DNA of 64,000 nucleotides from NCBI GenBank assembly GCA_012727425.1, contig JAAYHQ010000033.1, positions 1-64,000 on the forward strand, read 5' to 3'. Shown here piece after piece: positions 36,663-57,590 of this stretch. A program made the position numbers and the translations under genes. This stretch comes from Bacillota bacterium. Its GTDB lineage: Bacteria > Bacillota > UBA4882 > UBA10575. Every line of letters starts with the position of its first letter. Position 1 is the stretch's first letter. Below the pieces are notes generated by a model. That model was given only the letters and a program-made list of their open reading frames with translations. It was not told where the DNA came from and did not search any database.

Positions 36663-37859
36663 TTAACCCAGGATCTTTTCCAGGGCCATGGCGGTCAGTT
36701 CAATCCGGGCAAATTCTTTGATCCGTTCCCAGTCCCGTGCCAAGATGGCCCCACTTAAGTCCTTGGTGATCCCCAGATAACCGGAGAGGGCACCGGCCAG
36801 GCGGTCCCGGCTGATCGTATCGAGGTAGGCCCAGTCTTGCACCAGAATGGATTCGGCTTCTTCCGCCGTTAAACCAATCTTTAGTAACTGGTTATAGAGC
36901 TCTCCTTTGATCCCTTCTTTTACCTCATCCCAATTGCCGGCCAAGATCGCCGCGATCTGTTCCGTGGTGAGGCGCCCTTTTACCAAGGCGCTTAAACGGT
37001 TTAAGAGGTCGGATTTATTGACTTCGCCAAAGGCTTTCACCACGGCCGGCTCGTGGTTACGGTTGTAGTAGATGGTGACCTGGTCGTCTTTGGTCAAGGT
37101 ATCAACGGTCGTAGTCATGTTGTTCCGGAACACGACGGCTTCTGGGGGGATGACTGCGATCTCAATCTCGCCGTCGCTTTCCGGGCGGACGGCGATTAGA
37201 TTGGTCCCGGCTTCCGGCTGGTCGATTAGTTGACCACGGACGGTTTTCAGGTTGAGTAGTTGCTGTAACATCCATGCCGTATCAGCCCGGCTGGCCAGAC
37301 GACCGGGGTTAAAATCGGGACCGTAATACCGGGGCAGGAGCCCCAGTTTGGCCGCCAGTTCGATCTGGTAAAAGGCCCAGTAATCCGCGGTTACATCACC
37401 GAAAGTCGGGATAAACTCTATGGTGTAGTGTTCCTCTTCGGTTCCGATCTTCAGGAGCCGGGTCAGCATAACCACCATCTCGGCTCTGGTGACTGGTGCT
37501 TCCGGCTTGAAACTGCCGTCTGGGTAGCCAGTGATGATCTTGGCTTCGGCTAAAGCTTCGATGTAACCTTCCGCCCAGTGGCCCTTTGTATCGGTGAATT
37601 GACCTTTTCCGCCAGCACCCGTGAACCCGTAGGCAACGGCCAGTGTTTTGGCCAGTTCGGCCCGGGTAATGCTTTGGTCCGGGCGAAAAGAACCATCGGG
37701 GTAGCCGTGGAGGATCCCTTGGTCGATGAGCTCATTTACGCTGTCTTCCACCCAGTGCCCGGTAACATCGGTCGGCACGGCATGGACAACCGGCGTTACA
37801 AACAAGAAGATTAAAAGCAGCAGTAGGGGAAGGATTAACCGGTGACGTAAAGAAAACAT
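36663..37859 (-). CDS. Exported protein with three S-layer homology domains
   Basis: The 398 residues have a signal peptide (LILPLLLLLIFLFVTPVVHA) and three SLH repeats (about 30-200). The first two are clear (GHWVEDSVNELIDQGILHGY with PDGSFRPDQSITRAELAKTL, and GHWAEGYIEALAEAKIITGY). The third is degenerate (DYWAFYQIELAAKLGLLP). A short beta region follows (IEIAVIPPEAVVFRNNMT), then a helical C-terminal region of about 120 residues with repeated WD/EEIK-type helices. SLH domains bind pyruvylated wall polymers. The role of the C-terminal part is unknown. It is divergent from xseA. Confidence 0.88.
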   Translation of the reverse strand: MFSLRHRLILPLLLLLIFLFVTPVVHAVPTDVTGHWVEDSVNELIDQGILHGYPDGSFRPDQSITRAELAKTLAVAYGFTGAGGKGQFTDTKGHWAEGYIEALAEAKIITGYPDGSFKPEAPVTRAEMVVMLTRLLKIGTEEEHYTIEFIPTFGDVTADYWAFYQIELAAKLGLLPRYYGPDFNPGRLASRADTAWMLQQLLNLKTVRGQLIDQPEAGTNLIAVRPESDGEIEIAVIPPEAVVFRNNMTTTVDTLTKDDQVTIYYNRNHEPAVVKAFGEVNKSDLLNRLSALVKGRLTTEQIAAILAGNWDEVKEGIKGELYNQLLKIGLTAEEAESILVQDWAYLDTISRDRLAGALSGYLGITKDLSGAILARDWERIKEFARIELTAMALEKILG

Positions 37860-38017
37860 TGCTGTTCACTCCCTTGGTTTGTCAGACTACACCTTTTAAT
37901 TCGCGGATGCCAATGGGTATCCTTTATGTAAATCTTGGCCTGCCTGGCAAGGGAAAAAAAGAAAGGATTTTCCCGCCAAAGCTGGAATTAGTTAAGGTCG
38001 GAAAAGGAGGGGGGATT

Positions 38018-39244
38018 TTGCCGGAGATCCTTACGGTTTCACAAGTAACTTTGTATATTAAACGTCTGCTCGAAACCGATGAAGCTCTGCAGCAAGTTTG
38101 GGTATGCGGTGAAATCTCCAATTTTACCCTTCACTCTTCGGGGCATATGTACTTCACACTCAAGGATGAGAAGGCCCGGCTCCGGGCGGTGATGTTTAGG
38201 CGGGAAAACCAGTGGCTCAAGTTCCGGCCTTACAACGGGTTGGAAGTGGTCGTCTGCGGCCGGATTGCCGTTTACCCTAAGAACGGAGAATACCAAATTT
38301 ATGTCGACCTGATGGAGGCCGCCGGACTGGGTTCGCTTTACCTGGCTTTTGAGCAGTTAAAGGAGCGTCTGGCCCACGAAGGGCTCTTTGCCCCGGAACG
38401 GAAGAAACCGCTTCCCCGCTTACCCCGGAAGATCGGGGTGATCACCTCACCGACCGGGGCGGCGGTGCGTGACATCATTAAAATTATCCGCCGCCGTCAT
38501 CCGCGCGTGGATATCCTGGTCATTCCGGCGCAAGTGCAAGGCGATACAGCCCCGGCCAGTTTAGTGGCAGCCTTGCAAACCGCGGGGAGTCTGCCCGATT
38601 TGGACGTGGTCATTATTGGCCGGGGCGGCGGTTCCGCGGAGGAGCTGTGGGCTTTCAATGACGAAGGGGTGGCCCGCGCCATTGCCGCATGTCCCCATCC
38701 GGTGATCTCCGCCGTTGGCCACGAAACCGATTTTACCATTGCCGACCTAGTTGCTGATCTGCGCGCCCCAACACCATCCGGCGCCGCTGAACTCAGTGTT
38801 CCGGAGATTGGTGAACTGCGCAACCGGATTAAACTGTGCACCGATAACCTCACGGCTTTGTTCTCCCGGCTCTATGCACGCAAACGCGCGCAGATCGACC
38901 GGTTGTCTTTTCATCCGGTTTTACGGCACCCGGACCGGTTGGTCTTGGCGCGCCGGCAGCAAGTGGACGAAGGAAAGGAAGCATTGGTCCGCCGGATGCA
39001 GTTTGTACTGCAAGAGCGCAGGAAGGACCTGGAGCAGAAACTGGCGCAGTTGGAGATGGTCAGCCCGTTAGCGGTTTTGAACCGCGGCTACAGCATCTGC
39101 TACCGGGATGCCGACGGTCGGGTGGTGCGGGAGGCGGCGGAGGTCGATCCGGGTGAGGGATTACGGATTACCTTTCGCCGTGGGCAAATCTACGCCCGGG
39201 TGGAAACGGTGAAAAAGGATGTGACGTTATGGACGAAAAAATAA
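38018..39244 (+). CDS. xseA: Exodeoxyribonuclease VII large subunit
   Basis: XseA with XseB degrades single-stranded DNA. The 408 residues have an N-terminal OB fold (VWVCGEISNFTLHSSGHMYF, about 28-47), then the catalytic domain with IGVITSPTGAAVRDIIKIIR, VDILVIPAQVQG, IIGRGGGSAEELWAFNDE and SAVGHETDFTIADLVADLRA. A C-terminal helical region and GYSICYRDADG complete it. TTG 38018 with AAGGAGGGGGG gives the family N terminus; the frame is open upstream to 37859, but those 53 codons are not conserved. It overlaps xseB by 16 bases. Confidence 0.96.
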   Translation: MPEILTVSQVTLYIKRLLETDEALQQVWVCGEISNFTLHSSGHMYFTLKDEKARLRAVMFRRENQWLKFRPYNGLEVVVCGRIAVYPKNGEYQIYVDLMEAAGLGSLYLAFEQLKERLAHEGLFAPERKKPLPRLPRKIGVITSPTGAAVRDIIKIIRRRHPRVDILVIPAQVQGDTAPASLVAALQTAGSLPDLDVVIIGRGGGSAEELWAFNDEGVARAIAACPHPVISAVGHETDFTIADLVADLRAPTPSGAAELSVPEIGELRNRIKLCTDNLTALFSRLYARKRAQIDRLSFHPVLRHPDRLVLARRQQVDEGKEALVRRMQFVLQERRKDLEQKLAQLEMVSPLAVLNRGYSICYRDADGRVVREAAEVDPGEGLRITFRRGQIYARVETVKKDVTLWTKK

Positions 39245-39471
39245 CAGAGAAGACATTTGAAGAGGCGTTGGCCCGGTTGGAAACGATCATCGGTGAATTG
39301 GAAAAAGGGGAGTTGAATCTGGATGAAAGTTTAAAACTATTTGAGGAAGGGATCGCCCTGGCCCGCCATTGCAACGCCAAACTTGAGGAAGCCCAAGGCA
39401 AAGTGGAACTGCTTTTGGGAATTGAGGGCGGCGCGGCCAAGACCGTTCCGTTCCAACCGGAGGAGGAATGA
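39229..39471 (+). CDS. xseB: Exodeoxyribonuclease VII small subunit
   Basis: XseB binds XseA in several copies to make active enzyme. The 80 residues show the family pattern EKTFEEALARLETIIGELEK, LNLDESLKLFEEGIALARHC and LEEAQGKVELL. It overlaps the end of xseA by 16 bases and the start of ispA by 4. Confidence 0.96.
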   Translation: MDEKITEKTFEEALARLETIIGELEKGELNLDESLKLFEEGIALARHCNAKLEEAQGKVELLLGIEGGAAKTVPFQPEEE

Positions 39472-40355
39472 TTTTGAATCGGCCGGAACTCCAGTTTTAT
39501 AAAGCGAAGATCGAGGAAGCGCTTGATACTTATCTACCAAGTTCTTCCTGCGCCCCGGAGATCATCCATGCGGCGATGCGTTACAGCGTTTGCGGCGGCG
39601 GCAAACGGATCCGGGGAGTGCTTACCCTGGTCGCTTGTGACGTGGCCGGTGGGCGGTGGGAAGATGCCCTGCCGGCGGCTTGTGCGGTGGAGATGATCCA
39701 CGCCTATTCCTTGATCCATGATGATCTCCCGTGTATGGACGATGATGAACTGCGCCGGGGCAAACCCACCAACCATCGGGTGTTCGGCGAAGCGATCGCC
39801 CTTTTGGCGGGTGATGCCTTATTGACCCAGGGGATCGTTACCATGCTCGATCATATTCCGGTCGGCCTTGAACAGGCTTACTATCAGGCTTTGCGGGAAT
39901 TGGTTCAAGCCAGTTCGACGCAGGGGATGATCGGCGGTCAGGTGCTGGATCTGGCGGCCGAGGGGAAGCAGCTCACCCTCGATGCGCTTAAGCTCATCTA
40001 CCGCTGGAAAACCGGGGCCCTGATCCGGGCGGCCTTACGCATGGGCGGCCTGATTGGCAGGGCCGAACCGCAAGTCCTGGAGGCGTTGACCCGTTATGGC
40101 GAAGCGCTGGGCCTTGCTTTCCAGATTACCGACGATCTTTTAGATTTGCAGGCCGACCAGGAAATCCTTGGTAAAACGGTGGGCAGCGACTTAAAAAAAC
40201 AAAAAGCAACATATCCTGCGGTTGTCGGGATTGATGAGGCACACCGGCTGGCCACGGAAGAGATTAACCGGGCCTGTGCCGCCCTTGCTCCGTTGGGGGA
40301 AAGCGGTAAAGTCCTTATCGCGTTGGCCGAAGCGGTACTGCACAGGGACCACTAA
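39468..40355 (+). CDS. ispA: Farnesyl/geranyl diphosphate synthase
   Basis: A prenyl transferase making C15 (or C10-C20) isoprenoid diphosphates. The 295 residues contain the first Asp-rich motif SLIHDDLPCMDDDELRRG (about 83-100), GGKRIRGVLTLVAC, and the second motif ITDDLLDLQADQEILG (about 222-237). Short-chain product length is inferred from homology to IspA and context with xseB and dxs. ATG 39468 gives an ATGA overlap with xseB; TTG 39474 is better spaced from GGAGGAGG and may be the true start. Confidence 0.94.
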   Translation: MILNRPELQFYKAKIEEALDTYLPSSSCAPEIIHAAMRYSVCGGGKRIRGVLTLVACDVAGGRWEDALPAACAVEMIHAYSLIHDDLPCMDDDELRRGKPTNHRVFGEAIALLAGDALLTQGIVTMLDHIPVGLEQAYYQALRELVQASSTQGMIGGQVLDLAAEGKQLTLDALKLIYRWKTGALIRAALRMGGLIGRAEPQVLEALTRYGEALGLAFQITDDLLDLQADQEILGKTVGSDLKKQKATYPAVVGIDEAHRLATEEINRACAALAPLGESGKVLIALAEAVLHRDH

Positions 40356-40405
40356 ACACAACACAACCTTTAGCAAAAGTTTCGTCAAGGGTGGAGGAGA
40401 AAAAA

Positions 40406-40846
40406 GTGGGCGGATTTTCGGAAAACACTGTCTTTTGGAGCGCGTTTACTGCTTGGCTGGTTGCCCAGATCTTAAAGGGGTTATTGTTCCTGTTCAAACA
40501 TAAAAAAATGGATTTCCGGCGTTTTGTCGGTGCGGGCGGGATGCCCAGCTCCCACTCGGCCTTTGTGACTGCCCTGGCAACAGGCGTCGGCCGCACCGAA
40601 GGCTGGGCTTCGACCAGTTTTGCCCTGGCCCTGGTTTTTTCGTTAATTGTTATGTATGATGCCGCCGGAGTCCGGTTGGCCGCCAGCAAACAAGCGCGGG
40701 TCTTAAATAAAATCGTGCAAGAACTGTTTGCGGAACGCGAGTTTCACCATGAACGCCTGAAGGAGTTGATCGGCCACACCCCGGTGGAAGTGATCGTCGG
40801 GGCGGTGCTCGGGATCTTTTTCGGCTGGTGGTTGGTGGCCGGATAA
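40406..40846 (+). CDS. DUF212 / divergent PAP2 family membrane protein
   Basis: The 146 residues have several membrane helices and the family marks: NTVFWSAFTAWLVAQILKGL at the N terminus, then GGMPSSHSAFVTALATGVG. This resembles the PAP2 phosphatase SGSH region but lacks the full acid phosphatase set. VMYDAAGVRLAASKQARVLN and HTPVEVIVGAVLGIFFGW follow. GTG 40406 is chosen because GGAGGAG lies upstream; an in-frame GTG at 40391 is part of that site. It sits between ispA and the OLE RNA, so a role in isoprenoid phosphate or membrane metabolism is plausible but unproven. Confidence 0.88.
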   Translation: MGGFSENTVFWSAFTAWLVAQILKGLLFLFKHKKMDFRRFVGAGGMPSSHSAFVTALATGVGRTEGWASTSFALALVFSLIVMYDAAGVRLAASKQARVLNKIVQELFAEREFHHERLKELIGHTPVEVIVGAVLGIFFGWWLVAG

Positions 40847-40850
40847 TAAA

Positions 40851-40879
40851 TTAAAAAATCGCTTGTTATGTGTTATAAT
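40851..40879 (+). promoter_or_regulatory. Candidate promoter for the OLE RNA
   Basis: TTAAAA (40851-40856, 4 of 6) and a perfect TATAAT (40874-40879) are 17 bases apart, right after the DUF212 stop. Transcription would begin near 40886. Confidence 0.6.
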
Positions 40880-40885
40880 GTATGT

Positions 40886-41545
40886 AGAGAAGAAGATGGT
40901 GTAGTATCCTAGTCGGAAAGTCGTTTCGAAGACGGGCCTAAAAATCCGTCAAGGGCACATCGATGAAGTCCCTGGTGCTGGCCGCTGACGCCCAGTCGGG
41001 GGCGGTGCTGGGGGTTAAGGTAACGGGGCGCCCCGCAAAGGCATGCGGGAGTCGACCCCTTACCGCGGAGACCCAAGTGCGTGGGGAAGCTCACGGGCCT
41101 AACTACGGCTTGGGCTGGGAACCTGCATACGGTGTGGAAGAAGCCTACCGGCTCACGAAATATCGATGCAGTGTAGCCTGCCTTGAGGTGGGGTGGCGAG
41201 GATAACGGGCCAAGCAATGTTCTTGAAGGCCTGAGAACATTGCTCTTTGCCGTTTGAAACCCATCCTGCAAAAGAGGCTAGAGACGGTCCTTTCCGTTGA
41301 GGAAAACTCCTAGGCTATTCCCGCAGGGACAGTTATTGGGGATTGCGGTGTGGACTAAGTGGTGATCCAGTTTTACCGTCGGCGACGCGGTAAGGTGTTC
41401 ATAAAGGGAAACCGCCGGAACGGCGACGTTCCGGAGAACACCGGGAAAACCTACTGGACCTTAAGCCACAATGTTTACCCAGTAACTGACCATCTTCTTG
41501 TCATCCGAAAAAACAGAGCCAGCCGTGGACTAAGTTGGGGGAGAT
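40886..41545 (+). ncRNA. ole: OLE RNA (ornate, large, extremophilic noncoding RNA)
   Basis: A stretch of about 650 bases without a supportable gene lies between the ispA/DUF212 genes and oapA-dxs. In known OLE organisms this RNA of roughly 600 nt lies in the same neighbourhood, directly upstream of oapA and dxs. The region is densely structured. An 11-bp stem (41213-41223 with 41234-41244) is extended by ACGG/CCGT. A 7-bp hairpin CCGGAAC/GTTCCGG (41415-41421, 41428-41434) lies inside an outer stem GGTGTTC/GAACACC (41394-41400, 41436-41442). The 5' limit follows the promoter; the 3' limit is the oapA binding site. No terminator precedes oapA. I could not score a covariance model, so the call rests on context, size and structure. 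Confidence 0.87.
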
Positions 41546-41548
41546 TAC

Positions 41549-42121
41549 TTGGCGGGTGCGTTTCGAGTCGGAATCCTGACTTTTTTTTTGACTATTTCCC
41601 TTTCGGTTCTGTTTCAGTTGGCCCAAGTCTGGACCGCTTTTTGGGTCTCGGTCCTGGTTTTATTGGTCGTGGTTTTTTTTGGTATCCTCTTTGACATTAT
41701 TGGGACCGCGACCACGGCCGCTTCGGAAAAACCCTTCCATGCGATGGCCAGTGACCGGGTACCGGGGGCCAAGAAAGGCGTTGAGCTGGTGCGGAAGGCG
41801 GACCGGGTGGCCAACTTCTGTAATGACGTCGTCGGCGATATCTGTGGAACGGTGAGCGGCTCGATCGGTGCCGCTTTAGTGATTACGTTTGTCACCAACC
41901 ATGAATTAACGGCTTACCGTGATTTAATTTCCCTGCTTGTTGTGGGGGTGATCTCCGCCCTGACGGTGGGCGGAAAGGCCGCCGGCAAAGCTTTTGCTCT
42001 CAAAAGGTCCACCGCCATCTTGCTGCGGGTGGCGGTTCTCCTTGAAAAAATTGACGCGCTGCGTGGCCGGTGGTCGAATCGGGGGAAAAATAAAAAAGAA
42101 AAGCGCGAATGTGCAAAATAA
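41549..42121 (+). CDS. oapA: OLE-associated membrane protein OapA
   Basis: OapA anchors OLE RNA to the cell membrane. The 190 residues have two N-terminal membrane helices (about 8-24 and 29-50: VGILTFFLTISLSVLFQ, FWVSVLVLLVVVFFGILF). A polar middle follows with DVVGD (93-97), a DxxxD motif like the one I recall as important for RNA binding in this family. Two more helices (about 103-118 and 125-142) and a very basic tail (RGKNKKEKRE) complete it, well suited to RNA contact. TTG 41549 follows GGGGGAG. It lies directly after the OLE RNA and 20 bases before dxs. Confidence 0.87.
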   Translation: MAGAFRVGILTFFLTISLSVLFQLAQVWTAFWVSVLVLLVVVFFGILFDIIGTATTAASEKPFHAMASDRVPGAKKGVELVRKADRVANFCNDVVGDICGTVSGSIGAALVITFVTNHELTAYRDLISLLVVGVISALTVGGKAAGKAFALKRSTAILLRVAVLLEKIDALRGRWSNRGKNKKEKRECAK

Positions 42122-42141
42122 GAGTGGGGTTTGAAGCCAAG

Positions 42142-44022
42142 ATGTTTGCAGACCGAAAACTACCTGAGGATTTAAAGAAGATGTCCTTTGACGAACTGGA
42201 AGCTCTAGCGGCTGAGATTCGTGCCCTGTTGATCGAGACTGTCGCCCGGCAAGGTGGTCATCTGGCGCCCAATTTGGGCGTGGTTGAGCTTACCTTGGCG
42301 CTACATCGAGTCTTTAACAGTCCGGAGGATAAAATCATCTGGGATGTGGGCCACCAGTCCTATGTCCATAAGATCGTCACCGGCCGGTGGAAGGATTTTC
42401 ATACCCTCCGGCAGCGGGGCGGGATCAGTGGCTTTCCCAAACCGGAAGAGAGTCCCCATGATGTTTTTGCAACCGGCCACAGCAGTACTTCAATCTCGGT
42501 CGGACTTGGCCTGGCGAAGGCCCGGGATCTCCGGGGCGAGGATTATAAAGTGGTAGCCGTCATCGGCGACGGTTCGCTCACCGGCGGGCTGGCCTTTGAA
42601 GCTCTGAACAATGCAGGGCATTTAAAAACCAATCTCATTGTGGTGCTGAATGACAATGAGATGTCGATTGCGCCGAATGTCGGCGCCCTTTCCACCTATT
42701 TAAGCCAGGCGCGCCTCAACCCCACCCTGTACAAGTTCCGGGCCGACCTGGAACAGTTCATCCAGAAGATCCCAAAAGTCGGCGAAGTCACCTTTCGCTA
42801 CTGGGATAAATTAAAGGATATCCTCAAATACCTGGTAATACCGGGCATTCTCTTTGAGGAACTGGGTTTTACTTATATCGGGCCGGTCGACGGGCATAAT
42901 CTCCGCCAGTTGACCCAAACCTTAGCAGATGCCGCTCGCCGCCAGGGACCGGTGCTGATTCACGTGCGGACGAAAAAAGGGAAGGGGTACCCGCCGGCGG
43001 AAGAAAACCCCGTCCGGTTCCATGGTGTGCCCGGTTTTGAAGTCAGCACCGGGCGGGTACCAAGCCCCAATGGGCCCCCCACTTACACGGAGGTGTTTGG
43101 GGCAACGCTAATGGAAGCGGCCGCCCAAGACGACCGGATCGTGGCCATTACGGCGGCGATGAAGGAAGGTACCGGCCTGCAAGATTTTGCCCAAACCTAC
43201 CCCGCACGTTTTTTTGATGTCGGGATTGCGGAAGGGCACGCCGTGACCATGGCCGGCGGCTTGGCCCGGGCCGGGATGAAGCCGGTGGTGGCCATCTATT
43301 CTTCTTTTCTGCAGCGCGCTTTCGACCAGATTCTGCATGATGTTTGCCTCCAGAACCTGCCGGTTGTTTTTGCCATCGACCGGGCCGGGGTGGTTGGGGA
43401 GGACGGGCCGACCCACCATGGGGTCTTTGACCTTGCTTACCTCCGCATGATGCCCGGCATAACGATTATGGTCCCCAAGGACGAGCATGAACTGCGCCAG
43501 ATGCTCTTGTGGGCCTTAAAATTGGACAAACCGGTGGCCATCCGCTACCCGCGGGGACAAGGAAACGGCGGAAGCCTCAGTACGGTGCAGGTTTTCAACC
43601 CAGGAGAAGCAGAAGTCTTGAGAACGGGTGAGCACGCGGCCATTCTCGCCCTGGGCCCGATGGTGAAAAAAGCGGAGGAAGCCGCTGAACTCCTTAAAAC
43701 AGTGGGCATCCATTGCACAGTAATTAATGCCCGATTTGTCAAACCTTTGGACCGGCGGACCATTATCCATTGGGCGCGGCGCGTTCCTCACCTCATTACG
43801 GTTGAAGATCATGTTTTAACCGGTGGTTTTGGTTCGGCCGTCCTGGAACTACTGGCTGAGGCCGGGATTCACAACGTACATATTTCCCGCCTGGGTTATC
43901 CGGATCAGTTTATTGAAACGGCCTCCATCCCTGAACTCCATGAGCTTTATGGCTTAACGGCCGAAGGAATCTTTCAGTTGGTGGCCGGTCGTCCCTTGTC
44001 GCTGGCCAGCGGGAAGAAATAG
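42142..44022 (+). CDS. dxs: 1-deoxy-D-xylulose-5-phosphate synthase
   Basis: Dxs makes DXP from pyruvate and glyceraldehyde 3-phosphate, the first step of the MEP isoprenoid route. The 626 residues show GGHLAPNLGVVELTLALH and WDVGHQSYVHKIVTG. The thiamine diphosphate motif GDGSLTGGLAFEALNN (about 140-155) with LNDNEMSIAPNVGA, and AIDRAGVVGEDGPTHHG, follow. ATG 42142 aligns with other Dxs proteins; an in-frame ATG at 42109 would overlap oapA and has only a weak site. It shares an operon with ispA, which extends the same pathway. A terminator follows. Confidence 0.96.
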   Translation: MFADRKLPEDLKKMSFDELEALAAEIRALLIETVARQGGHLAPNLGVVELTLALHRVFNSPEDKIIWDVGHQSYVHKIVTGRWKDFHTLRQRGGISGFPKPEESPHDVFATGHSSTSISVGLGLAKARDLRGEDYKVVAVIGDGSLTGGLAFEALNNAGHLKTNLIVVLNDNEMSIAPNVGALSTYLSQARLNPTLYKFRADLEQFIQKIPKVGEVTFRYWDKLKDILKYLVIPGILFEELGFTYIGPVDGHNLRQLTQTLADAARRQGPVLIHVRTKKGKGYPPAEENPVRFHGVPGFEVSTGRVPSPNGPPTYTEVFGATLMEAAAQDDRIVAITAAMKEGTGLQDFAQTYPARFFDVGIAEGHAVTMAGGLARAGMKPVVAIYSSFLQRAFDQILHDVCLQNLPVVFAIDRAGVVGEDGPTHHGVFDLAYLRMMPGITIMVPKDEHELRQMLLWALKLDKPVAIRYPRGQGNGGSLSTVQVFNPGEAEVLRTGEHAAILALGPMVKKAEEAAELLKTVGIHCTVINARFVKPLDRRTIIHWARRVPHLITVEDHVLTGGFGSAVLELLAEAGIHNVHISRLGYPDQFIETASIPELHELYGLTAEGIFQLVAGRPLSLASGKK

Positions 44023-44026
44023 GACC

Positions 44027-44069
44027 AAAGCGGCGCGTGGCCGCAGATTGCGCGGCCCGCTTTTATTTT
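44027..44069 (+). terminator. Terminator after dxs
   Basis: AAAGCGG (44027-44033) and CCGCTTT (44057-44063) enclose a second GC-rich stem, followed by TATTTT. It ends the xseA-to-dxs operon. Confidence 0.85.
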
Positions 44070-44333
44070 CACTGCGCTTAGCATGCTTAGGAAGGGGCCT
44101 ACTGGAAAGAAAATTTTCTATTTTCTAAGGGAGAAGGAATATTTCCCCATACGTCGAATGAATTAGTTAGCTCTAGGTTTTATTTTATCGCGCATTCAAA
44201 GGGAGGGAGTCAGCGACAGTCTGCAGATAACATTGGTTTGTATTCCGTTTGCAAGCTGGTTGGAATTGGCTGGTGGACATTCTGCGAGGACAGAGACTAA
44301 CTACGTAATACTACTTGATTAGGAATGAACGTA
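44070..44333 (+). other. Gene-free region before the HD-GYP gene
   Basis: No gene and no strong sigma-A promoter is seen. The sequence holds AT-rich inverted bits (GAAAATTTTC near 44110) but no riboswitch that I recognise. Confidence 0.4.
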
Positions 44334-45221
44334 ATGAAGAAAAAACCATTAGTTCTAGGATTAATGGTTGTTGCACTTTTTTATTTTGCAGGTGCCTATT
44401 ATCTGTACCGCAAACTGCTTTTTCCCAACCTGGCCCCACGGGATGTATTAACCTATATTTGGGTGGTTATTACCGGATTTCTCTTGTTTCTTGCTTTTAC
44501 CCTTTATTATCTCTTTACCTTCCGGCAACAGCTCAGGGAAGAAAAGGACCGGCAAAGAAAAAGCTGCACAAAGCTGCAACAAGCGAACGAAGGGGCGCTT
44601 AAAGCTTTGATCCATGCCTTGGATTACCGGGATCACGATACCTGGGACCATTCAAGACGGGTGGCTGCTTACGCTACCGTCCTTGCCGAACATATGGGGC
44701 TGCCCCAATCCGAACTGAACAAGATTGCTTTGGCGGGCTACCTTCATGATATTGGGAAGATCGGGGTGCCCGACCGGATCCTCTTAAAACCGACGAAGCT
44801 GCTCCCGGAGGAATGGGAAACGATCAAACGCCATCCCGAATTGGGTTATGATATAATTCAACAGCTTGAGTTCCTTAATACTGCGGCCGAGATCATTCTC
44901 CTCCATCATGAGCGCTATGATGGAAGTGGCTATCCTTTAGGTTTGAAGGGTCATAAAATTCCTTTGTTGGCACGCATTTTTGCGGTTGCCGATGCGCTGG
45001 ACGCCATGACCAGCGAACGTCCTTACCGGGCGGCCCGTCCGATGACGGAGGCCTTTGCCGAGATCCGTCGCCTGTCAGGTGTCCAGTTTTGCCCGCAATG
45101 CGTAAAGGCGTTAGAAGAGTTGGGCGTGGAAAAATTATCCGAGATCCAACAGTCCGTGAAGAAGCAGGGAATGGTGAAGTTGCGCCTCGAAGATCTGGTT
45201 CCCTGTTCCGATTATTTGTAA
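44334..45221 (+). CDS. Membrane-bound HD-GYP domain protein (probable cyclic-di-GMP phosphodiesterase)
   Basis: The 295 residues have two N-terminal membrane helices (about 5-24 and 39-61) and a short linker. An HD-GYP domain follows (about 85-270). It shows HDTWDHSRRVAAYATVLAEH, the HD pair in GYLHDIGKIGVPDRILLKP, IILLHHERYDGSGYPLGLKG (HHE and GYP), and ARIFAVADALDAMTSERPYR. This motif set is the one found in active cyclic-di-GMP phosphodiesterases. There is no periplasmic sensor beyond the short loop, so its signal is unknown. ATG 44334 is favoured by AGGA spacing over ATG 44325. No GGDEF partner is in the window. Confidence 0.9.
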   Translation: MKKKPLVLGLMVVALFYFAGAYYLYRKLLFPNLAPRDVLTYIWVVITGFLLFLAFTLYYLFTFRQQLREEKDRQRKSCTKLQQANEGALKALIHALDYRDHDTWDHSRRVAAYATVLAEHMGLPQSELNKIALAGYLHDIGKIGVPDRILLKPTKLLPEEWETIKRHPELGYDIIQQLEFLNTAAEIILLHHERYDGSGYPLGLKGHKIPLLARIFAVADALDAMTSERPYRAARPMTEAFAEIRRLSGVQFCPQCVKALEELGVEKLSEIQQSVKKQGMVKLRLEDLVPCSDYL

Positions 45222-57002: not shown

Positions 57003-57295
57003 TGGCGACACGGAAACGCAAAATACCACAACGGACTTGTATTGGTTGTGGTGAAGTCCGCAATAAACGGGAATTGATCCGGATTGTGCGCACACCGGAA
57101 CGGGAAGTGTTGGTCGATTTTACCGGTAAAAAATCGGGCCGGGGTTGTTATATCTGTCCTGCTTCGTCCTGTCTGGAACGGGCTTTAAAGGGTAACTTGT
57201 TGGCGAACAAATTGGAGGTCGAGATTAGCCCCGAGTTGAAGGAGAAACTTAAAACCGAACTCATGGCGGGGATTGTTCATGACGAAGCTCCTTAG
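57002..57295 (+). CDS. rnpM: RNase P modulator RnpM (YlxR)
   Basis: A small basic RNA-binding protein; in Bacillus it has been reported to inhibit RNase P. The 97 residues show RTCIGCGEVRNKRELIRIVR, then KSGRGCYICPASSCLERAL, the YlxR signature with a Cys cluster. ATG 57002 overlaps the nusA stop (TGATG) with GGGGGGAG upstream; GTG 56999 is an alternative. It precedes ylxQ as usual. Confidence 0.95.
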   Translation: MATRKRKIPQRTCIGCGEVRNKRELIRIVRTPEREVLVDFTGKKSGRGCYICPASSCLERALKGNLLANKLEVEISPELKEKLKTELMAGIVHDEAP

Positions 57296-57590
57296 CTTTC
57301 TCGGTATTGCCCAGAAAGCCGGGAAGTTAACGCTTGGTTTTACCGCTACTGCCCAAGCTGCAAAGGGAGGCAAGTTATCCCTTGTTCTCCTGGCGACCGA
57401 CACCGCCTGGCACACTAAAGAGAAGGTTGAGCGGCTCTGTCGTACGTACCAAATTCGTTGGTACTGCCTGGCAAAGCGGGAAGAACTGGGGCGGGCTTTA
57501 GGAAAAGAAACCCTGGCGGTTGTTGGTGTCCTTGCGCCGGAGATGGCGCAGGCCATTGAGGAGCAGTTGCTGACGGCCCGGATGGAATAA
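57279..57590 (+). CDS. ylxQ: L7Ae-family ribosomal/K-turn-binding protein YlxQ
   Basis: The 103 residues are an L7Ae/L30e-type fold that binds kink-turn RNA. It shows [20 protein letters not shown] (family N terminus), [40 protein letters not shown] and [16 protein letters not shown] 57279 lies inside the end of rnpM with GGCGGGGA upstream; TTG 57273 is possible. Its exact RNA target is not known. Confidence 0.93.

Follow-up and report, generated by a model that had tools for sequence, protein, structure and literature searches.

OLE is among the largest conserved bacterial RNAs, and its biochemical function is still to be found. It has been reported from 2,822 Bacillota genomes and is absent from Negativicutes, a distribution for which a link to Gram-positive wall biology was suggested; its neighbour and partner OapA has a known, weak homology to CNNM proteins (PMC11332333). 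In cryo-EM structures loop L4 is a dimer contact, and a kissing-loop dimer contact at L9.3 was seen in another species (PMC12286853). The published partner sites on the RNA are a basal kink turn of P5 for OapC and P12.2/P13 for OapB; the RNA was proposed to span the membrane of Gram-positives, in a model where domain 2 lies beyond the cell membrane and could reach the wall (PMC12265935, 2025).

The locus described here lies in a Bacillota genome, in a 64,000-nucleotide stretch of DNA that is called the window throughout. Compared with the representatives of the Rfam family RF01071 (H. halodurans, C. acetobutylicum and C. botulinum), its OLE has the same structure and dimer loops and a full-length match to the model, the same neighbours ispA, oapA and dxs, and the same partners OapA, OapB and OapC. 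It differs from them in that the host carries genes for an LPS outer membrane and that a terminator-like hairpin lies within the oapA reading frame; a further difference concerns base pair 40970/41013, which is C-G in most LPS-diderm sequences and U-A in the monoderm set.

An OLE-oapA locus of the usual arrangement

A gene-poor stretch in front of dxs had been read as OLE RNA in the original prediction, and the covariance-model search bore this out. RF01071 matched at 40880-41509 on the + strand over its full length (model positions 1-616 of 616), with 480.3 bits and E = 8e-139, where the gathering score of the family is 50. Apart from this match none reached E = 1 in a covariance-model search of positions 38000-45000, and the whole genome contains one OLE copy. 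The OLE stretch folds more stably than shuffled sequences (z = -6.1). The xseA, xseB, ispA and dxs genes had been placed correctly as well, each being recovered by a profile match. The genes of the locus are the following:

37961..39244, + strand: xseA, start picked from the profile match (TIGR00237, E = 1e-147)
39229..39471, + strand: xseB (TIGR01280)
39468..40355, + strand: ispA, farnesyl diphosphate synthase (NF045485, E = 2e-101)
40391..40846, + strand: DUF212, divergent PAP2 family membrane protein (PF02681, E = 1e-51)
40880..41509, + strand: OLE RNA (ole gene), full length (RF01071, and covariation in 17 related loci)
41549..42121, + strand: oapA, 190 aa, TTG start with GGGGGAG ahead (CNNM match, hhalign and AlphaFold2 model)
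42142..44022, + strand: dxs (TIGR00204, E = 5e-251)

The order xseA-xseB-ispA-DUF212-ole-oapA-dxs is the usual OLE arrangement: oapA is directly 3' of ole and the isoprenoid genes ispA and dxs are part of the cluster, as expected of an OLE locus. The covariance match, the partners and the gene order settle the identity of the RNA as far as sequence allows, and the locus is very probably an OLE ribonucleoprotein locus of the known, ordinary OLE-oapA type. Since the region is an RNA whose base pairs covary, the ORFs within it, one on the minus strand (40909-41271) and others on the plus strand, were set aside as genes.

The DUF212 gene between ispA and ole was absent from the original prediction. 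It was observed as a constant neighbour between ispA and ole/oapA, in the window as in other loci (L005, L006, L020, L025, L165 and L167), and it stays in this slot even where OLE has gone. A lipid-phosphate enzyme in this place may be functionally tied to OapA.

Promoter and terminator-like hairpins

OLE had been credited with its own -10/-35 candidate, and a pattern scan located a promoter of this kind immediately 5' of the RNA:

40851..40879, + strand: ole promoter, TTAAAA, 17 nt, extended -10 TGTTATAAT (pattern scan)
41565..41582, + strand: terminator-like hairpin followed by T7, in the first oapA codons (same place in six of the seven listed loci of the window's family)

The promoter (TTAAAA-17-TATAAT with an extended TG) is of the sigma-70 type and ends one base before the RF01071 match. 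In this region 0.7 chance matches are expected from the scan; TGnTATAAT was present just 5' of OLE in all 14 of the 14 class loci that were lined up. Transcription probably starts a few bases inside the RF01071 match, near 40886.

In the window's family the sole terminator-like hairpin sits in the first codons of oapA. Such a hairpin was found at most 130 nt from the 3' end of OLE in 23 of 57 loci, compared with 5.4 in shuffled sequences, and the hairpin at 41565-41582 is a possible partial terminator of ole. The T run that follows it also encodes the conserved TFFL residues of OapA, so that conservation of the run is explained in part by a coding constraint.

OapA

The oapA gene begins forty bases 3' of OLE. 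Its assignment, made originally from the letters, was upheld by profile comparison: the window protein and Halalkalibacter OapA (L098) matched with an hhalign probability of 100 and E = 5e-48. The two proteins share 39% identity over 170 aligned columns, together with the DxxxD and TVGGKxxGK motifs; the window OapA differs by its TTG start and by a basic tail of different sequence. The four-helix membrane protein with a DVVGD motif and a basic tail that had been described is recognizable both in the ORF and in the predicted structure, which has four long helices in addition to the tail. Both aspartates of the motif are invariant in an alignment of 16 OapA proteins, i.e. the window OapA and 15 other neighbours of OLE:

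41825..41839, + strand: DVVGD (DxxxD) codons, OapA residues 93-97

The match of OapA to the CNNM family PF01595 was weak (E = 2e-4, under the Pfam cut-off), and the top structural match of its AlphaFold2 model (pLDDT 84.5) was the CNNM protein MtCorB, with a TM score of 0.57. Compared with the CNNM/CorC Mg2+ transporters (MtCorB, MpfA), the window OapA is thus predicted to share the transmembrane fold, in keeping with the weak PF01595 match, but it has neither the CBS pair nor the CorC_HlyC domain and consists of the transmembrane part only.

OapA adjoins OLE in all of the first 30 loci and, among the LPS-diderm families retrieved, in almost every one. Among the relatives, the sole OLE-positive genome that lacked OapA was G002, where OLE is a fragment at the end of a contig, and in the OapA-positive relatives with no OLE match the contig ends in or beside OLE. 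Thus, G004 and G006 were rejected as cases of OapA without OLE, since they carry the 3' 218 nt of OLE at a contig end; G018, where the contig stops right beside oapA, and G028, which has an oapA fragment at a contig end, were likewise attributed to assembly breaks. OapA was missing from 21 of 22 OLE-negative LpxC-positive genomes.

Metagenome contigs tended to break in or beside OLE (L123 of G006, L124 of G004, and in G002, G015, G018 and G028), those of G004 and G006 at the same model position, 397. The conserved OLE sequence probably tangles assembly, which would make presence counts from metagenome-assembled genomes too low.

Secondary structure and dimer contacts

To test the Rfam structure, its pairs were mapped onto 17 aligned OLE sequences of diderm-type genomes. 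Of 2725 alignment cells, 89% were paired. Two-sided changes occurred in 90 of 164 pairs and in 331 cells, compared with 29-44 pairs and 54-88 cells in slid controls, in which the pairing partners were moved by one to three columns. The elements discussed below are:

40892..40900, + strand: closing helix (P1 by position), 5' strand GAAGAUGGU, pairs with 41489-41497
41489..41497, + strand: closing helix (P1 by position), 3' strand ACCAUCUUC, pairs with 40892-40900
40931..40950, + strand: P4 hairpin with A-rich loop CCUAAAAAU (100% of cells paired in the 17 sequences)
40958..40965, + strand: palindrome CAUCGAUG at P4a, candidate OapA-binding site (near-invariant in the class alignment)
41227..41232, + strand: self-complementary AGGCCU in the P9 apical loop, a 6-nt palindrome and candidate kissing-loop dimer contact
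41415..41434, + strand: 3' domain hairpin (P13 by position), covarying helix 20 of the structure test

The closing helix is omitted from the Rfam model; it was 93.5% paired, with two-sided changes in seven of its nine pairs. Distal P7 and P9 pairs were poorly supported in the window's lineage, perhaps as an effect of the alignment. A further helix, CUAGUC/GGCUAG (40909/41276), was added to the model and then dropped, as it overlaps an Rfam helix.

The P4 loop CCUAAAAAU is nearly invariant in the 17 sequences, and the palindrome CAUCGAUG would correspond to the palindromic P4a site mapped in PMC12265935. A 6-nt palindrome was present in 62 of 115 distinct P9 loops, compared with 12.9 in shuffled loops. 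Twelve different palindromes were observed, including CUGCAG, CUCGAG and GGAUCC in LPS-diderm sequences; palindromes that are kept while their sequence changes are the behaviour expected of a self-kissing dimer contact, the role given to the P9 loop by the cryo-EM work (PMC12286853). Both candidate dimer-contact features, the A-rich L4 and the palindromic P9 loop, are found in the window's OLE.

OapB, OapC and Mg2+ transporters

The gene for OapB was found at L120:4226-4573 (- strand), between map and infA in a ribosomal-protein operon, and its product matched PDB 7k9b (OLE-associated protein B) with E = 3.6e-10. A KOW profile search of the genome did not return this protein, which was located by gene position instead. 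OapC/YbxF is encoded at L116:1459-1737, between rpoC and rpsL; it belongs to the L7Ae family and matched PDB 3v7e and 4lck, solved structures of YbxF and related L7Ae-like proteins. A second L7Ae-family protein is encoded in the window at 57291-57530 (+ strand), after nusA (YlxQ by position). Kink turns could be recognised by this protein too, perhaps in competition with OapC.

No CorC_HlyC (MpfA-type) protein was found in this genome, compared with one or two in most sister genomes. This agrees with the anticorrelation between OLE and MpfA-type proteins that has reportedly been published. The exclusion is not strict, however, because MpfA-type proteins occur in most of the sister genomes that also carry OLE.

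Host envelope and distribution of OLE in the phylum

The host genome has two Omp85 matches, LpxC, and an lpxC-fabZ-lpxA operon (fabZ and lpxA named from sequence), which confirms at the gene level the diderm host that had been supposed. In the class, Omp85 was found in all genomes and LpxC in all but one (G017). Two other features of the window touch on the envelope. ExbB and TonB genes at 640-2550, together with a short ORF at 1274-1684 (ExbD by position), form a Gram-negative energy transduction set in a Bacillota genome. An SLH-domain protein encoded at 36663-37859 (- strand) adjoins xseA; such proteins serve as tethers, for the outer membrane in diderm Bacillota or, in other organisms, for S-layers.

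OLE and LpxC were tabulated in 399 genomes drawn evenly from the phylum. OLE was present in 284 of them, and the description of OLE as rare in the original prediction is outdated, also in view of the 2,822 genomes of the literature (PMC11332333). OLE was equally common in LpxC-positive (61 of 86) and LpxC-negative genomes (223 of 313), 25 genomes having LpxC only and 90 neither; the odds ratio was 0.98 and the Fisher p value 1.0, in a test that ignores the kinship of the genomes. OLE is therefore not a monoderm trait, in the sense of being absent from LPS-diderm Bacillota. The 61 genomes with both OLE and LpxC span 25 family-level lineages, and mixed bins do not explain them, because four of these genomes are single contigs (G214, G249, G329 and G389). 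In three families (f33, f43 and f64) LpxC is present and no OLE was found in any LpxC-positive genome sampled. No account of OLE in a diderm turned up in a literature search, although one may exist.

The proposed link of OLE with the Gram-positive wall does not hold generally: OLE, with its partner set, is found in LPS diderms as often as in others, which weakens a wall-linked function. The function of OLE is best sought in what both envelope types share, namely the cytoplasmic membrane, divalent metals and the energy state.

A trace of the envelope type was looked for in the RNA itself. From 17 monoderm OLEs the positions with a conservation of 94% or more were taken, and each was counted as kept if 90% or more of 40 LPS-diderm OLEs had the same base there. 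Domain 1 kept 138 of its 152 such positions and domain 2 kept 76 of 83; by this measure the two domains do not differ in their conservation across envelope types. Positions 40970 and 41013 are U-A in the monoderm set and C-G in 33 of the 40 LPS-diderm sequences; the two bases apparently pair with each other in the basal P5 helix, as a compensatory change.

OLE away from oapA, and alternative readings of the locus

In all five genomes of family f8, which is LpxC-negative (G031, G363, G401, G150 and G180; loci L127, L154, L155, L156 and L159), the ispA-DUF212-oapA-dxs slot contains no OLE; the RNA is elsewhere in the genome, both OLE and oapA being kept. The same split was observed in an LPS diderm (G040), again with both kept. 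The f8 OLE, equipped with its own strong terminator, lies, in five genomes out of five, 124-303 nt 5' of a c-di-AMP riboswitch (RF00379) on the same strand, the gene after the riboswitch encoding an NlpC/P60-type hydrolase. Such a riboswitch was found within 1.5 kb in one of 40 other OLE loci, on the opposite strand. No paper naming both OLE and the c-di-AMP riboswitch was found in a literature search.

These arrangements bear on the reading of the region as a long leader that controls oapA and dxs in cis and gives no free RNA. The position of OLE directly 5' of oapA and dxs in most loci, and the attenuator-like hairpin at the oapA start, are what such a leader would look like. The separation of OLE from oapA in f8 and G040 with both kept makes a pure leader unlikely and argues for an RNA that acts in trans; furthermore, the f8 OLE has its own strong terminator, published work shows OLE binding protein partners, and OLE is to our knowledge far larger than known leaders. 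Taken together, these points leave the leader reading highly improbable. It is also quite improbable, though less so, that OLE is a ribozyme for which anchoring by OapA is secondary; the Breaker group is said to have speculated on a c-di-AMP synthase. The size and conservation of OLE and its constant place upstream of the riboswitch and NlpC/P60 gene in f8 would suit this activity, but the f8 OLE terminator precedes the riboswitch, the single occurrence among the 40 other loci is on the other strand, and we know of no report of catalysis by OLE. Decay of the window's OLE into a remnant has next to no chance of being correct: mismatches occur in distal P7 and P8, at some of the pairs that the Rfam model has there, but the RNA is full length, scores 480 bits, has kept its promoter and conserved positions, and belongs to a family in which the pairs covary.

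More weight, while still on the unlikely side, is given to an OLE that crosses the inner membrane of LPS-outer-membrane bacteria. Domain 1 (P3-P9) would then be cytoplasmic and domain 2 (P1, P2 and P10-P15) periplasmic, a folded RNA domain between two membranes. The full-length domain architecture of the window's OLE and the conservation of the P4a palindrome and of both domains are compatible with this topology. However, contact of domain 2 with the wall predicts a change in diderms, where domain 2 was kept as well as domain 1 (76/83 versus 138/152), the genomic position of the gene for the domain-2 binder OapB, between map and infA, suits a cytoplasmic protein, and we know of no machinery for inserting RNA into membranes. 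If OLE did cross the inner membrane of a diderm, its function would be unrelated to the thick Gram-positive wall. A diderm host allows a clean test of the two-sided model, as inner and outer membranes are separable and spheroplasts are accessible to RNase.

The reading that we prefer is that of a trans-acting OLE ribonucleoprotein, in a model that takes the dimer and the partner binding sites from the literature and the stress phenotypes from H. halodurans. An OLE RNA of about 620 nt would be made from the extended -10 promoter of ole, and oapA would be read from the ole operon, probably at a lower level, through a partial stop at the terminator-like hairpins around the oapA start; partial termination would yield more OLE RNA than oapA message. 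The RNA would fold and dimerise by contacts at L4, at L5/L6/L7 and at the palindromic P9 loop, with OapC on the kink turn at the base of P5 and OapB on the P12.2/P13 hairpins. OapA, as a CNNM-like membrane protein, would hold it at the inner membrane, a location that we infer for this host because it is an LPS diderm by its genes and the RNA would be OapA-bound. The complex would act in trans and would most likely regulate, in response to stress, the OapA-dependent handling of divalent metal (Mg2+), a role assigned by analogy and tied to the membrane and energy state; the chances of this mechanism we put at slightly better than even.

In one LPS diderm of 99% completeness (G349, locus L138) ispA and dxs flank a full OLE (475 bits) so closely that oapA would not fit, and OapA was not detected anywhere in the genome. 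This is a possible case of OLE without OapA, which does not fit an obligatory OLE-OapA pair unless OapA was missed there. OLE was also sought in viruses: the 17-mer GGGCAYATCGATGAAGT occurs in five IMG/VR contigs, none of which scored as OLE and which were therefore rejected, and phage records gave no OLE match. In G040 (L129:1011-2983), where it is separated from oapA, OLE comes directly after ORFs that resemble genes for phage head and scaffold proteins, as though it had travelled with a prophage or next to one.
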